Below, one piece after another: positions 8,293-16,680 of a stretch of 64,000 bases of DNA (positions are counted from its first letter, which is position 1; the number at the start of each line of letters is the position of its first letter). A program made the translations under genes and the position numbers. Under the pieces are notes generated by a model. That model did not search any database. It was given only the letters and a program-made list of their open reading frames with translations, and had not been told where the DNA came from. Source of the DNA: Elusimicrobiota bacterium (GTDB lineage: Bacteria; Elusimicrobiota; Elusimicrobia; UBA1565; UBA9628); assembly GCA_016218575.1 (NCBI GenBank), contig JACRDN010000020.1:124001-188000 (forward strand), given 5' to 3'.

Positions 8293-9462
8293 TCATTTTC
8301 GGCCCGGAAGAAGCATCATCCTTGTCCGAGAAAACACCCAAGACATCTTGGCGGCGGCTCTCGTGAAAAGTCCGGAAAACTTGACGTCCTTGATCCGCTT
8401 GGCCTCCACCCACTCGTCGAGATAGCTGGGGTCGTCGTAGCGGATTCGGTGGACGCCGCGGAAGTGCTTGAGGATGACGGCCGGCAGCCATTTCCCCTCG
8501 TACTCCACCAAGACCTTCTGGCCGATCGGGCGCATGGGCGGAGGCAGGAATGCCCGGGCCCGGGCCGCGTCTACCCATTCCTCGCGGGGCTGTCGCTTTT
8601 GCGAATATCGCACCTTGAGCCGCCCTCTCCGGGCCTCGATGACGCGCGCCCTCCGCCAAGAGCTTGCGTCTGGCACTTCCACATGCTCGCTTTCCCTGGG
8701 GGCAAGCTTGCGGGAGGTTCGGGCGATCTCCGCTCCAGGGCCGAAAATTCCCGTCGCCGCCGAGGCGGAGATCTGATCGTCGTTAAAGGCGAGTTCCGAC
8801 TGGATGTACTCGGCCCATTCCTCGAATTTCACACGCCCATCCCTGTTCAAGTCCACGGCGGGCTCCCCGCGAAGGCCGGCTAGGAGGGCTTCCGTGAACG
8901 TCCATTCCCCAGTCGAGCCGCTGGTATTGTCCACGGAGGAAAGAACAAAATAAGACACTCTTCCAAACAACTTGCCGGCTTCCACGGCGAGGCCCCCGGA
9001 GTAGCAGCAGTCGGCGGCGAGAATGGCCCGGGCGCCCTTGAAATCCCTCTCGATGTCATGGAAAATGGACTGAACGGTCCAAGCGCCCCTGTCGCGGGCC
9101 ATGAAATAGGACCGGCCGCGGGCGTCTACGTCCCCCTCCCCGGCGTAATAAAGGAAAAGGAAGTCCCCGGGCTTGGTCCGCGCCAAGGTCCGGCGGAACT
9201 CATCACGGATGCTGGCGGTAGTCGAAGCCTGGCGGTCCGTTAGGAAAACGATGCGCTCCCGCGAGACTCCCTTGGCCGCGAGAAATTCCATGAGCTCCCG
9301 GTCGCGGCGGCCGGCCTTCTGCTCCGGGGAGGCGGGAAAGGCGGGCCAGTCGATGATGCCGACCGCGAACACCCACGCCCGGGAGTAATCGATCTCCGAG
9401 GCGCGGGCCGGAGCGCCGGAAAACAGCACGGCCGCGGCTAAAAGGCCGTAAAAGGTCTTCAT
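8293..9462 (-). CDS. Secreted caspase-like (C14) protein with EF-hand and two Tudor/agenet-like C-terminal segments
   Basis: A 389-residue protein with a signal peptide (about 1-22). Residues 28-245 resemble the caspase/metacaspase fold. The catalytic-cysteine strand is ADCCYSGG (C153 in the DxCxSG motif), but the position of the catalytic histidine, normally YSGHG, reads YYAGEGD with E109 (codon gag). Residues 204-215 form a complete EF-hand loop (DxNxDGRxxxEE). Residues 268-306 and 314-357 look like two small SH3/Tudor- or agenet-like barrels (WRRARVIEARRGRLKVRYS and KWLPAVILKHFRGVHRIRY). It diverges from leuS with only 26 bases between start codons. Proteolytic activity is uncertain because the histidine is missing. 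Confidence 0.72.
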   Translation of the reverse strand: MKTFYGLLAAAVLFSGAPARASEIDYSRAWVFAVGIIDWPAFPASPEQKAGRRDRELMEFLAAKGVSRERIVFLTDRQASTTASIRDEFRRTLARTKPGDFLFLYYAGEGDVDARGRSYFMARDRGAWTVQSIFHDIERDFKGARAILAADCCYSGGLAVEAGKLFGRVSYFVLSSVDNTSGSTGEWTFTEALLAGLRGEPAVDLNRDGRVKFEEWAEYIQSELAFNDDQISASAATGIFGPGAEIARTSRKLAPRESEHVEVPDASSWRRARVIEARRGRLKVRYSQKRQPREEWVDAARARAFLPPPMRPIGQKVLVEYEGKWLPAVILKHFRGVHRIRYDDPSYLDEWVEAKRIKDVKFSGLFTRAAAKMSWVFSRTRMMLLPGRK

Positions 9463-9469
9463 GCCCAGA

Positions 9470-9475
9470 AAATTA
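9470..9475 (-). promoter_or_regulatory. -10 candidate for the caspase-like gene
   Basis: TAATTT on the minus strand ends 7 bases before the ATG at 9462. It lies back-to-back with the leuS -10, so two divergent promoters would share 26 bases. Confidence 0.4.
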
Positions 9476-9476
9476 C

Positions 9477-9482
9477 TATAAT
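9477..9482 (+). promoter_or_regulatory. -10 element for leuS
   Basis: Perfect TATAAT ending 6 bases before the GTG at 9489. The expected transcription start falls on the start codon, so the leuS message is probably leaderless. No good -35 match is visible. Confidence 0.6.
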
Positions 9483-9488
9483 TTCCCA

Positions 9489-12643: not shown

Positions 12644-13645
12644 ATGGAGTTCAAGCCCGCCGAGCTCGCCAAGGAGTGGCGCTCCAAGAGCCTCAAGCCC
12701 GTCTACTATCTTGTCGGAGAGGAAAGCTCGGGCAAGGCCCAGGCCCTGGAGATACTAAAAACCGCCTTCAAGGAGGACAGCTTCAATTTCCGGGAATTCT
12801 CGGGAGATCCGAACGCCGAGGTCTCCGCCATTCTGTCAGAGGCCATGACCTTGCCGGTTTTCGCGGAGCGCCGGGTGGTCCTCGTGAGCAACCCAAAGAT
12901 CCCGGCCGAGGCGCGGGAAGCCCTGGCCGAATACTTGAAAGAGCCTTTACCCAGCACCACCGTGGTACTGCTCTGCGATGACAAGAAACCCGACCCCAAG
13001 GACCGCTTGACGGCCGCGGTCCTTGCAAAGGGAGCCGTCTGCCTCTTTAGCCCCTTAAGGGAGGAGGAGGCCGCGGAAAGGCTCAAGGCCGAGGCGCGCA
13101 AGCGGGGCAAGGTCTTGAGCGAGCAAGCCTGCGCCACCCTTCTCTCCGAAGTGGGCACGGATTGGGGGCTCTTGAGCCAGGAACTGGAAAAAATCCTGTT
13201 GTTTGCCGCCTCGTCCCAGATCGGGACTCACGAGGTCCTGGAGTGCCTGGGCTACCATAAACTGGCCGACCCATTCCTCTTGACGCGCCTGGTCCAGGAG
13301 CGCAAAACCAAGGAGTCCCTCGGGCACCTCCAGCGCCTGTTCGCCACGGGAAAGCCCGAGGAACAGGCCTTCAAGGCGCTTTACCAGATCTCGGCCGCGG
13401 TGCAGAAGCAGCTGCGCGGCAAGCGCATGCAGGCCGCCGGGAAGGCTCCCGAGGAGATATTCCACAAGCTCCGCCTGCACAGCTACTGGGACAAGGACTA
13501 TCTAAGCCGTCTTGCCAAGCTCGGCGAGAAGCGGCTCATCTCCAACCTCAATCGCTGCGTCCAGACCGAGGCGGATCTTAAATCCAAGCCCTGGCTAGAC
13601 CCCAAAATCGAGATCGAGCAGCTTGTGATAGATATAGGCGCCTAG
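12644..13645 (+). CDS. holA: DNA polymerase III delta subunit
   Basis: A 333-residue clamp-loader subunit. The N-terminus (KPVYYLVGEESSGKAQAL) has the degenerate P-loop of HolA, residues about 85-115 (PVFAERRVVLVSNP) match the family, and the C-terminal half carries the helical collar region (LSQELEKILLFA, then ISAAVQKQLRGKRM). It opens the beta clamp within the DnaX complex. It starts 10 bases after lptE and its last bases overlap the convergent 1012-residue gene by 4. Confidence 0.92.
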   Translation: MEFKPAELAKEWRSKSLKPVYYLVGEESSGKAQALEILKTAFKEDSFNFREFSGDPNAEVSAILSEAMTLPVFAERRVVLVSNPKIPAEAREALAEYLKEPLPSTTVVLLCDDKKPDPKDRLTAAVLAKGAVCLFSPLREEEAAERLKAEARKRGKVLSEQACATLLSEVGTDWGLLSQELEKILLFAASSQIGTHEVLECLGYHKLADPFLLTRLVQERKTKESLGHLQRLFATGKPEEQAFKALYQISAAVQKQLRGKRMQAAGKAPEEIFHKLRLHSYWDKDYLSRLAKLGEKRLISNLNRCVQTEADLKSKPWLDPKIEIEQLVIDIGA

Positions 13646-16600
13646 AGGAGCCCCCCGACCCCGGACCCTCCTCCACCCCCACCGCCGCCAGGGGGAAGAG
13701 GAGGAGCAAACCATGTCAGCAGCATGAAACCCCCCAGGATCACTGCCGCGATCAAAAATGAAACCACAGTAATGAAAGCAGTCGTCTCATAAAACAGCAC
13801 CGGCTTTTGATAATCAATGATCGCATCGGGACTGCGCCCCTGGGGATTGCCGCGACTGAGAGCTTCCTTCAAAGACTTTGCTCCATATTTGAACCCGATA
13901 TCAATGCCGAAATACTTCCTCATGATGTACGTGGCGGAAGTGGCGCAGGAGAGAGATTGGATGAATAATTTTTCCCCTTTTTTAACCAGAGGCCAGGCAA
14001 ATCCGTTTTTGTCTTTGAGAAATACCTCGCCGTTTTCATCCACAATTTCCGCGCTTGTATTGACAATCCGTCCATCCAAGCTCAAACGGTCGTCTGGAAG
14101 CCGAGAAATCTCCAATTCTCTGGAATCAATATCAAAGAACGGCCGCATGGCCTCGTGCAGTCCATCAATTCCGCTTAGGACCTCTTGAATTCTTTCCTTG
14201 CCCACTTGGAACATGAACCCTTTTTCCTTTTTTATACGTGGGTTAAATTCTTTGGGAATATAATTCGGGAAACTATAACTCTTTCTTCCTATCCTCAAAA
14301 AAACATGCTCATAGCCGGGGCTATAATAGACCTCCACGCTGGAATCAAGGAAATCCTGGTAAGCCTTTGACTTTAAATCCAGCTCCCCGCCGTCCTTGTA
14401 GTAGACATATTCCTTGCCGTTGGAAAACTCCCGCATTTCGTGGGGATGCGCCATGACTTGGGAAATTGAACGCACGAAGGGCGCCGCCGCCAAGGGCGGC
14501 CCGCGCGCGCCGCCGGCCGTCAGAATATTGTTTTTAAACGTCTGGAAGTATTCCGAGAGATTGGCCTCATAACCCCATCGGGCCACGGCTGTCTGCAGCG
14601 GCTCGATAAGACCTTCGCTGGAGGCGCCGCCGTCCCTTTCCCTCTCGACAAGGCTGTTGACCCGCCTGATAAAGCCTCTGGAAGCCCTCTCAATGCGGAG
14701 CAAGGCTTGCGGCTTCTCAGTTGGGGGGAGATTTTGAATAACCGGGTGGCGACTCCAGTCCCTCAAGGGATAGAAGAATCTCTCGGCCAGCGGAGCTGCT
14801 CCTATCCTGATGGAAGGGTTGAGGACGCTGCGCTTGATTTTTTCTTCCGCCGCTTCCCCGATTCTTTGAAAGAAATCTCTCCAAGCCGCCGCATCAATGA
14901 AGATATCAAGCTCTCGGGCCCGCTGCGCGGGCAAATCCGGAGACAGAAGTTTGATCTCTGCAAACGGCTCAAAAGGCGTCAAGTCTCCCGAAACGGCCAA
15001 TATCCTCGAGAACTCATCCATGGCGGATAGAAGCTCTTCATCTCTTTTATGGAATTGCCTGAACTCGTGGCCCTTATATCCTTCAGGATAAATGTCATCC
15101 CTAAATACCGGGGCATAGCTCAACCGGGCGCTGCCCGGCCGCCCCACTTTTTGCCCCCGCCCGGCTCTGCGCTCCAATTCCAAGAACAGCTCGCGATCCG
15201 CCTCCCCGAGCGGCCCCAAGGAATGATGGACGAGGTTCTTTCCCGGCAAAACCTCGGGACGCTTCAAAAATTGCCCATAATTTCTTTCCAGGCTTTTTAG
15301 CTGGGCGAGGTCCGACTCAAAAACGACATAGCCGGCGGTGCCTTGAACCTCATCGTAGTCCTTGTATGCGTCATGCCCCTGCAGGGAGATCGGGCCGTAG
15401 CGCCGGATGAGGAACCTTACGGAATCCCTCAACTTCCCCATGGAATCGAACACCAAGCCATTCATTTCAAAATTCCCGTCGCCCTCAAAGCGCAGCAAGG
15501 CGGGCAATTTCCGCGGCGCCGTCGAAAGCTTTCTAAGGGCAACCACCCCTTTTTTTTGCGTTTTTGGAAACGCCTGTTCCGCCGCGGCCAACCTCTCCCG
15601 GAAGGCCATTTTTCTCCACTTCTTCTCGGGAATGGAGGGAGGGCGGTAGTCCCATAAAACAGCCGGATTCTCACGGAGATTGAACTCCGCTTCAATGCCG
15701 AAGCTGATGGGGCGCCTTCTGTCGAAGCGAACATGCCTGCGCTCTGGAACAGGGACCTTGAAATCGAGGATGCTGTCCTCTCCCGATCTTTCATAGGCCT
15801 CGGCCAGGAAATGAGCGTCGGCTCGAGAGCGCACCGTGACGTAAACGATCCCGGAGGGATCCCTAAACGTGGCTCGCACGCCTTCTGGAACTTTCCGAAA
15901 CTCATGCTTCTTGGCCAGGCGCCTGGCCTCAAGCGCGGTCCGGAGCATTCCCCGGCCGGCCTCGATCATCCCGTGAATCCGCGATTTTCCTGGCTCAACC
16001 CCATGTTCTGCGGGCGGGCGAGGGGGCTCCAACGCGGCCGGCTCTTGCCCGGGTCCGGAATATTTCCCAAGCCCCGAAAGAGGGACCGCTTTCGTCTCAA
16101 GGGGCGCGACCACGGGAGTAGGAGCTGGCACGACCGCCGCAATCGAGGCGTCAAAGAAGCGTTTTAAATTGGCGTCCAGTCGCGCGACGCTTTGCCAAGG
16201 AGCGCCGGCACTAATGCCCAATTGCCTTCGCAATATGAGGACGGTCCTCTCCAAACTAGCATCTTTTTGAGAAAACCTCTGGATTTCACGAGCCGCCGCC
16301 GCGATCGCGGACAAATTCTCAGGACCCAACTTTTGGCTGAGCCCCTGGTGAACAATGAACGCCCCCGGCATGGCTGGGAAGGCCCGGTTTAACAAGAGGG
16401 CCAACACCGTCCGGGCCGACTGACGCTCCCCCATGGAGGCGAAATCCATGGACGGCGCCCCAGCCAAGGCCTTCAGATACTCAAGCCCTCTTTTAGGCGG
16501 CAAGGACAAAAAATGATTCAGCTGGTTGGAGACGATTGAGCGGAATTGGGCCTCAGCAGGGTTCACGGCACGTACAACCCGCGCCTCCATGGGCGAGGCA

Positions 16601-16680
16601 ATAGGCCTGGCCAAGCTTCTGGAAACAAAAAAGCCCAGGCTCAGAAACGACACCAGGGCCGATTTGGCAAGCGCAGCCAT
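13642..16680 (-). CDS. Large envelope protein with amidoligase-like and NlpC/P60-like regions
   Basis: A 1012-residue protein with an N-terminal signal-like segment (residues 1-25) and a C-terminal membrane helix (about 966-990) followed by a Pro/Gly-rich tail. Residues 327-334 (FGIEAEFN) match the GIExE motif of the glutamate-cysteine ligase/amidoligase superfamily, DGNFEMNG (401-408) and GHEFRQFH (537-544) could be its other metal/ATP motifs. Residues about 780-930 contain EHVFLRIG (H792), YSF and SCATSATYIMRKYFG (C912), an order seen in permuted NlpC/P60-like cysteine hydrolases. Both assignments are pattern-based inference. Base composition is less GC-rich than neighbours, hinting at different ancestry. 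A TAAAAA hexamer lies 5 bases before the ATG. Confidence 0.6.
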   Translation of the reverse strand: MAALAKSALVSFLSLGFFVSRSLARPIASPMEARVVRAVNPAEAQFRSIVSNQLNHFLSLPPKRGLEYLKALAGAPSMDFASMGERQSARTVLALLLNRAFPAMPGAFIVHQGLSQKLGPENLSAIAAAAREIQRFSQKDASLERTVLILRRQLGISAGAPWQSVARLDANLKRFFDASIAAVVPAPTPVVAPLETKAVPLSGLGKYSGPGQEPAALEPPRPPAEHGVEPGKSRIHGMIEAGRGMLRTALEARRLAKKHEFRKVPEGVRATFRDPSGIVYVTVRSRADAHFLAEAYERSGEDSILDFKVPVPERRHVRFDRRRPISFGIEAEFNLRENPAVLWDYRPPSIPEKKWRKMAFRERLAAAEQAFPKTQKKGVVALRKLSTAPRKLPALLRFEGDGNFEMNGLVFDSMGKLRDSVRFLIRRYGPISLQGHDAYKDYDEVQGTAGYVVFESDLAQLKSLERNYGQFLKRPEVLPGKNLVHHSLGPLGEADRELFLELERRAGRGQKVGRPGSARLSYAPVFRDDIYPEGYKGHEFRQFHKRDEELLSAMDEFSRILAVSGDLTPFEPFAEIKLLSPDLPAQRARELDIFIDAAAWRDFFQRIGEAAEEKIKRSVLNPSIRIGAAPLAERFFYPLRDWSRHPVIQNLPPTEKPQALLRIERASRGFIRRVNSLVERERDGGASSEGLIEPLQTAVARWGYEANLSEYFQTFKNNILTAGGARGPPLAAAPFVRSISQVMAHPHEMREFSNGKEYVYYKDGGELDLKSKAYQDFLDSSVEVYYSPGYEHVFLRIGRKSYSFPNYIPKEFNPRIKKEKGFMFQVGKERIQEVLSGIDGLHEAMRPFFDIDSRELEISRLPDDRLSLDGRIVNTSAEIVDENGEVFLKDKNGFAWPLVKKGEKLFIQSLSCATSATYIMRKYFGIDIGFKYGAKSLKEALSRGNPQGRSPDAIIDYQKPVLFYETTAFITVVSFLIAAVILGGFMLLTWFAPPLPPGGGGGGGGSGVGGLL

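Follow-up and report, generated by a model that had tools for sequence, protein, structure and literature searches.

Organization of the locus

The window, i.e. the whole stretch of 64,000 nucleotides that was analysed, harbours on its reverse strand (positions 8293–9462) a gene coding for a protein of 389 amino acids. According to the list of open reading frames, the translation and a structural model, the product is a pseudo-caspase that is probably exported and carries two chromo-like (Tudor/Agenet) barrels. The frame starts with an ATG at position 9462, runs over its 389 codons without stop or frameshift, and displays a GC3 of 0.78, which lies inside the range of the eight neighbouring genes. 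Residues 1–21 (9400–9462, reverse strand) were judged by eye to be signal-peptide-like, with K2, a hydrophobic stretch at residues 4–14 and A19-R20-A21 before the likely cleavage site; most of the relatives start in a similar way. The export proposed in an earlier note on this DNA is thus considered probable from the N-terminus.

The gene is flanked by a methyltransferase gene and by a divergently oriented leuS. The start codons of the latter and of the caspase gene are separated by a gap of only 26 bp (9463–9488) containing ATTACTATAATT, which is -10-like on both strands. The element is near-symmetric, with TATAAT pointing toward leuS, 6 bases before its GTG, and TATAGT pointing toward the caspase gene, 12 bases before the ATG. 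It was not reported by a consensus promoter scan. From its position, a bidirectional promoter common to both genes is possible, and the transcript of leuS may possibly be leaderless. Elsewhere in the window, an open reading frame of 1012 amino acids on the reverse strand (13645–16680) gave no Pfam match at an E-value of 0.001.

No shared neighbour was seen at the four Elusimicrobiota relatives' loci that were compared. The neighbouring genes there, named by eye from their translations, were XdhC-like and ATPase genes, ispG, a lytic transglycosylase and a carbonic anhydrase, at one locus each. An operon or a partner gene was rejected, as the neighbours differ in every Elusimicrobiota relative, and no defence island was apparent. 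The likely export of the protein and the lack of partners argue together against the role of an intracellular effector. With regard to a defence system, PADLOC gave only a match to its generic profile for caspases (E 3e-7), and assignment to the EACC1-associated caspases of NCBIfam was rejected with a score of 38.5 bits against a cut-off of 140.

Relatives of the window protein

A search of 97 related genomes revealed four clear relatives (L002 to L005) displaying 37–46% identity. The profile built from these sequences detected 53 loci in 84,980 species genomes; 18 of these loci (L031–L048) scored as family members and originated from Acidobacteriota, Cyanobacteriota, Bacteroidota, Planctomycetota, Myxococcota (deposited as Deltaproteobacteria) and Elusimicrobiota. 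Three further members were found within Elusimicrobiota, and more were added by searching the classes of one acidobacterium and one planctomycete. Genomes from the same family group as the window's matched deposited Elusimicrobia MAGs, the proteins being identical within the pairs L002/L041, L003/L038 and L004/L039. After removal of duplicates, the family set consisted of 44 rows including the window protein, i.e. 43 relatives from at least six phyla, most of them with the layout of the window protein. Single-sequence scans of genome contigs and viral contigs retrieved no close relatives, and the family profile had no match in viral contigs. In the tree, the row of the window protein sits in an open fork, by which vertical descent within the phylum is neither supported nor refuted; its branch measures 0.79 compared to a median end branch of 0.24.

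One member of the family shows an additional feature: downstream of its barrels, L089 (964–2607) apparently carries a phosphatase domain of the dual-specificity/tyrosine type. One of 22 rows gave a PTP-NADK match (2.7e-19), and L089 alone has a long C-terminal extension, with a HCRRGADRTG motif.

Predicted fold

The structure was predicted with AlphaFold2 from a 22-row alignment, giving a model with a pLDDT of 87.6 and a pTM of 0.84, in which both barrels are mostly above 90. The caspase-fold domain comprises about residues 28–250 (8713–9381, reverse strand), a single chain containing both the p20 and the p10-like half, as defined by VIA-align and profile matches. VIA-align superposed 206 residues (model residues 28–246) on metacaspase 4 with a Z-score of 19.9 and an rmsd of 2.7, and Foldseek placed the caspase part on metacaspases (E 6.6e-9 to a yeast metacaspase), both in line with the caspase/haemoglobinase fold of the orthocaspase type in MEROPS family C14. 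For the C-terminal tail, Foldseek matched structures of tandem Agenet and Tudor domains (ADCP1, AGDP1, FXR2, SGF29). The protein thus displays the layout of the secreted caspase and chromo-like family, in which chromo-like barrels of the SH3 fold come after the caspase domain.

In Pfam, the window sequence alone scored above the cut-off only for Agenet (E 3.5e-10), while Tudor-knot (0.0044), Peptidase_C14 (0.0063) and EF-hand remained below their own cut-offs. The profile of the relatives matched structures of metacaspases, of the FXR1/FXR2 tandem Tudor domains and of the MRG15 chromobarrel. These matches agree with the predicted fold, and the doubt left by the low Pfam scores of the single sequence is removed. 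Both the caspase fold and the two C-terminal small barrels, recognized in the earlier note from the letters only, were therefore recovered by structure prediction, and the objection that the fold might be unlike caspases was not borne out. The nearest solved caspase folds are those of metacaspases (e.g. Arabidopsis metacaspase 4 and yeast Yca1; Z about 18.5–20); these have an intact His-Cys dyad and no Tudor barrels, whereas the window protein displays Glu-Cys and two barrels.

The catalytic site

Residue 109, located at the site of the catalytic His, is a Glu encoded by GAG (9136–9138, reverse strand) within the motif YYAGEGD. Cys at the catalytic position is kept as C153 (TGC, 9004–9006, reverse strand) within ADCCYSGG, where D151, C153, S155 and G156 make up the DxCxSG signature. 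In the family alignment, His was found at site 109 in 43 of 43 relatives and Glu in the window protein alone; the search of 84,980 genomes was biased in that one of its two motifs admitted only His or Glu at this site, and the searches of the 97 genomes and of the classes scored whole sequences without restriction at site 109. Cys is present at site 153 in 42 relatives. The caspase-type domains from other families that were collected in related genomes and in the window's own genome contained His in 89 of 89 cases, and their catalytic Cys was conserved in 86, replaced by Ser in one (L167), and fell outside two sequences that were cut short.

The other members share 33 columns at a conservation of at least 90%; the window protein keeps 27 of these and departs at six, H109 being the sole catalytic one. 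Core positions that were kept include D54, Y105, G108, G110, D124, D151, C153, S155, S176 and W187. Search for a substitute catalytic His within residues 28–250 only gave H135, which is located in a helix according to model and sequence and is no obvious candidate. The protein consequently lacks the catalytic His of orthocaspase-type C14 peptidases and corresponds to a pseudo-orthocaspase, a p20 homologue in which one dyad residue is substituted (E109, C153). As noticed earlier, the GAG codon is not one base away from a His codon: two changes from CAC are needed, via CAG (Gln) or GAC (Asp). Passage through Gln is possible and would fit with the Gln-Cys class reported by Klemencic et al. (2019; PMC6426788).

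Because all relatives have His, Glu109 represents a private change and not a conserved alternative active site. Conservation of Glu among orthologues, for which the earlier note had named His as the sign of a local mutation, did not hold, and the finding shifts from a new type of active site to a pseudo-variant. From the sequences compared, Glu109 is a private, non-conservative loss in this genome. The suggestion that the protein is inactive as a protease is well in line with the absence of the catalytic His, and is probably correct.

Two other substitutions deserve mention. L128 (1456–2553, genome G360) is the one relative without Cys at site 153 and a second pseudo-variant of the family, in which His is kept and the catalytic Cys is replaced by Pro (DSPRSS); its aromatic cage is lost in barrel 1 and kept in barrel 2. 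In L167, from a related genome and from another family, the catalytic Cys is replaced by Ser (DSSFSG).

The EF-hand loop

A complete EF-hand loop had been described at residues 204–215 (DLNRDGRVKFEE; 8818–8853, reverse strand), and this was confirmed by the model and the alignment: the 12-residue loop offers oxygen ligands at positions 1, 3, 5 and 12 (D204, N206, D208 and E215) and joins helices 188–198 and 213–228. By chain order in the model, these would be the two helices of the p10-like half. The loop is kept in most relatives, with Asp at position 1, Asp or Asn at position 5 and Glu or Asp at position 12, each in 41 of 43, and a similar loop occurs at the same place in several bacterial caspases outside the family (e.g. 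L054, L061, L065, L066, L076). These three observations indicate that the EF-hand is built into the caspase fold as a family trait. The earlier reading of the loop as a special feature of the window protein is corrected accordingly: it is a part of the caspase fold in the family of secreted caspases with chromo-like barrels. Calcium control via the loop is plausible. The calcium sites of metacaspases are not known to be EF-hands.

Aromatic cages and charge of the barrels

Barrel 1 (Agenet) comprises residues 260–305 (8548–8685, reverse strand) and barrel 2 (Tudor-knot/chromobarrel-like) residues 314–360 (8383–8523, reverse strand), as defined by Pfam, model and alignment. The cage positions were assigned by ourselves from homology with MRG chromobarrels as the Tyr following Trp in the second strand, the Tyr of the V-x-Y strand, and the aromatics at +3 and about +7. 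At these positions the window protein displays R270, Y286, K289 and R293 in barrel 1, and L326, Y342, P345 and L348 in barrel 2, i.e. one aromatic out of four in each. Relatives mostly have three or four cage aromatics per barrel. Those with both barrels aligned each retain at least three of four in at least one barrel, none being degraded in both; five relatives from the planctomycete class have two aromatics in barrel 2 and four in barrel 1. Judged by these four positions per barrel, the aromatic cage typical of the secreted caspase and chromo-like family is largely absent.

Barrel 1 is strongly basic. Its net charge is +7 compared to a mean of -0.9 and a maximum of +4 in 39 relatives, and that of the mature chain is +11 compared to a maximum of +3. 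Loss of the cation-pi cages together with the gain of basic charge argues against methylated amines as ligands and in favour of an anionic one. Binding of methylated ligands, as proposed in the earlier note, is therefore unlikely for this protein with most cage aromatics gone in both barrels, and the basic barrels may rather accommodate an anionic ligand.

Comparison with known systems

Chromo-like domains of bacteria are consistently found in secreted proteins, caspase being among their commonest partners (Kaur et al., 2018; PMC5906684), so that Tudor-type domains in a secreted bacterial protein are not unusual, in contrast to the earlier note. The same authors described secreted caspase and chromo-like proteins with tandem copies in planctomycetes, cyanobacteria, bacteroidetes and chloroflexi, observed that the domains conserve the aromatic cage at least partially, and suggested a role in binding peptides in peptidoglycan or matrix. 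These proteins have a signal peptide, which is putative in the window protein, and share with it the caspase-like peptidase domain and the tandem chromo-like barrels; the window protein differs by the loss of most of the cage in the two barrels and by Glu at the site of the catalytic His. Pseudo-orthocaspases with a substituted dyad amount to 858 of 9,994 orthocaspases, and are mostly of the Tyr-Ser type in Alphaproteobacteria and Cyanobacteria (Klemencic et al., 2019; PMC6426788). They are, like the window protein, prokaryotic caspase homologues with a substituted His-Cys dyad, but the latter has Glu-Cys and belongs to Elusimicrobiota. Reported single replacements of His include Gln-Cys (PMC6426788) and, in cyanobacteria, Asn-Cys and Tyr-Cys (PMC8283722); Glu-Cys is not among the variants listed in these two studies.

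Both halves of the finding thus have a precedent (PMC5906684, PMC6426788): proteins of this general type and caspases without an active site have both been described before, and the window protein is a mildly unusual member. In the open-access literature, as weak evidence of absence, no report was found of a pseudo-variant in the secreted chromo-like caspase family, nor of this family in Elusimicrobiota. What appears to be new here, on comparison with the relatives, is the loss of the aromatic cages in both barrels and the strongly basic character acquired by barrel 1. Cyanobacteria and Rhizobiales are the best-known sources of pseudo-caspases. The occurrence of such a variant among secreted caspases with reader barrels, alongside many active-looking relatives of the same layout, offers a natural pair for probing the non-catalytic parts.

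Proposed function and alternatives

The reading we favour, with some reservation, is that of an exported, protease-dead pseudo-orthocaspase, possibly reused as a binder, whose cages no longer read methylated amines. It would derive from a widespread family of secreted caspases with tandem chromo-like barrels, peptidase activity having been lost in the window lineage. With no His to activate C153, peptides would not be cleaved at a useful rate; the retained D151 and fold could still accommodate a basic peptide or another protein as partner, the fold would be steadied by calcium, and the basic barrels would bind an anionic ligand of the envelope or matrix, such as lipopolysaccharide or extracellular DNA, instead of methylated amines. 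From this presumed loss of cleavage and altered binding, the protein would be a binder or scaffold located beyond the inner membrane rather than a protease. Against the favoured reading, no report was found of Glu at the His site in other pseudo-orthocaspases, which makes total inactivity an inference. Arginine drift in a GC-rich genome can also raise the net charge; the GC-rich relatives from Elusimicrobiota stay lower, however. Re-purposing of the caspase is possible. A bolder version is regarded as rather unlikely: the protein would have switched as a whole from a protease and methyl-amine reader to a non-catalytic polyanion binder, losing its dyad together with the two cages and acquiring a basic surface, or would even have become a Glu-Cys caspase with new chemistry.

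The same losses could also be explained by decay, the job of the protein having become dispensable so that His and cage residues drifted in what is on the way to a pseudogene. The joint degradation of three functional sites (the dyad and both cages) in this genome only, the fairly long branch in the tree, the non-conserved neighbours and the patchy presence would fit with it. The fully open frame, its coding-type GC3 and a model that is confident throughout do not, nor does the conservation of 27 of the 33 columns including C153 and the EF loop, and replacing His by Glu takes two base changes. Decay is unlikely on balance, if still to be taken seriously. Those two changes also speak against an error of assembly or consensus at codon 109, as this codon would have to contain two wrong bases while the rest of the frame is clean. 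Such an error would leave the cage losses and the charge shift of the same protein unexplained, and it is most improbable despite the multi-contig assembly, its completeness of 97%, and a genus represented by one genome. An active enzyme of altered chemistry, with Glu109 serving as the base for Cys153, was considered too, as general base catalysis by Glu is possible and the remainder of the site, including Cys153 and D151, is conserved. A Glu-Cys dyad is not known to us from any enzyme of clan CD, this pair is absent from the reported variants cited above, and the additional loss of the cages points to an ancestral role that was lost; this option is very unlikely.

Other caspase-type genes

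Caspase-type genes are numerous in the related genomes G011, G009 and G028, with up to 17 matches per genome and some tandem pairs. The window's own genome contains three caspase-type genes (L093–L095) besides the window gene, two of which are adjacent.
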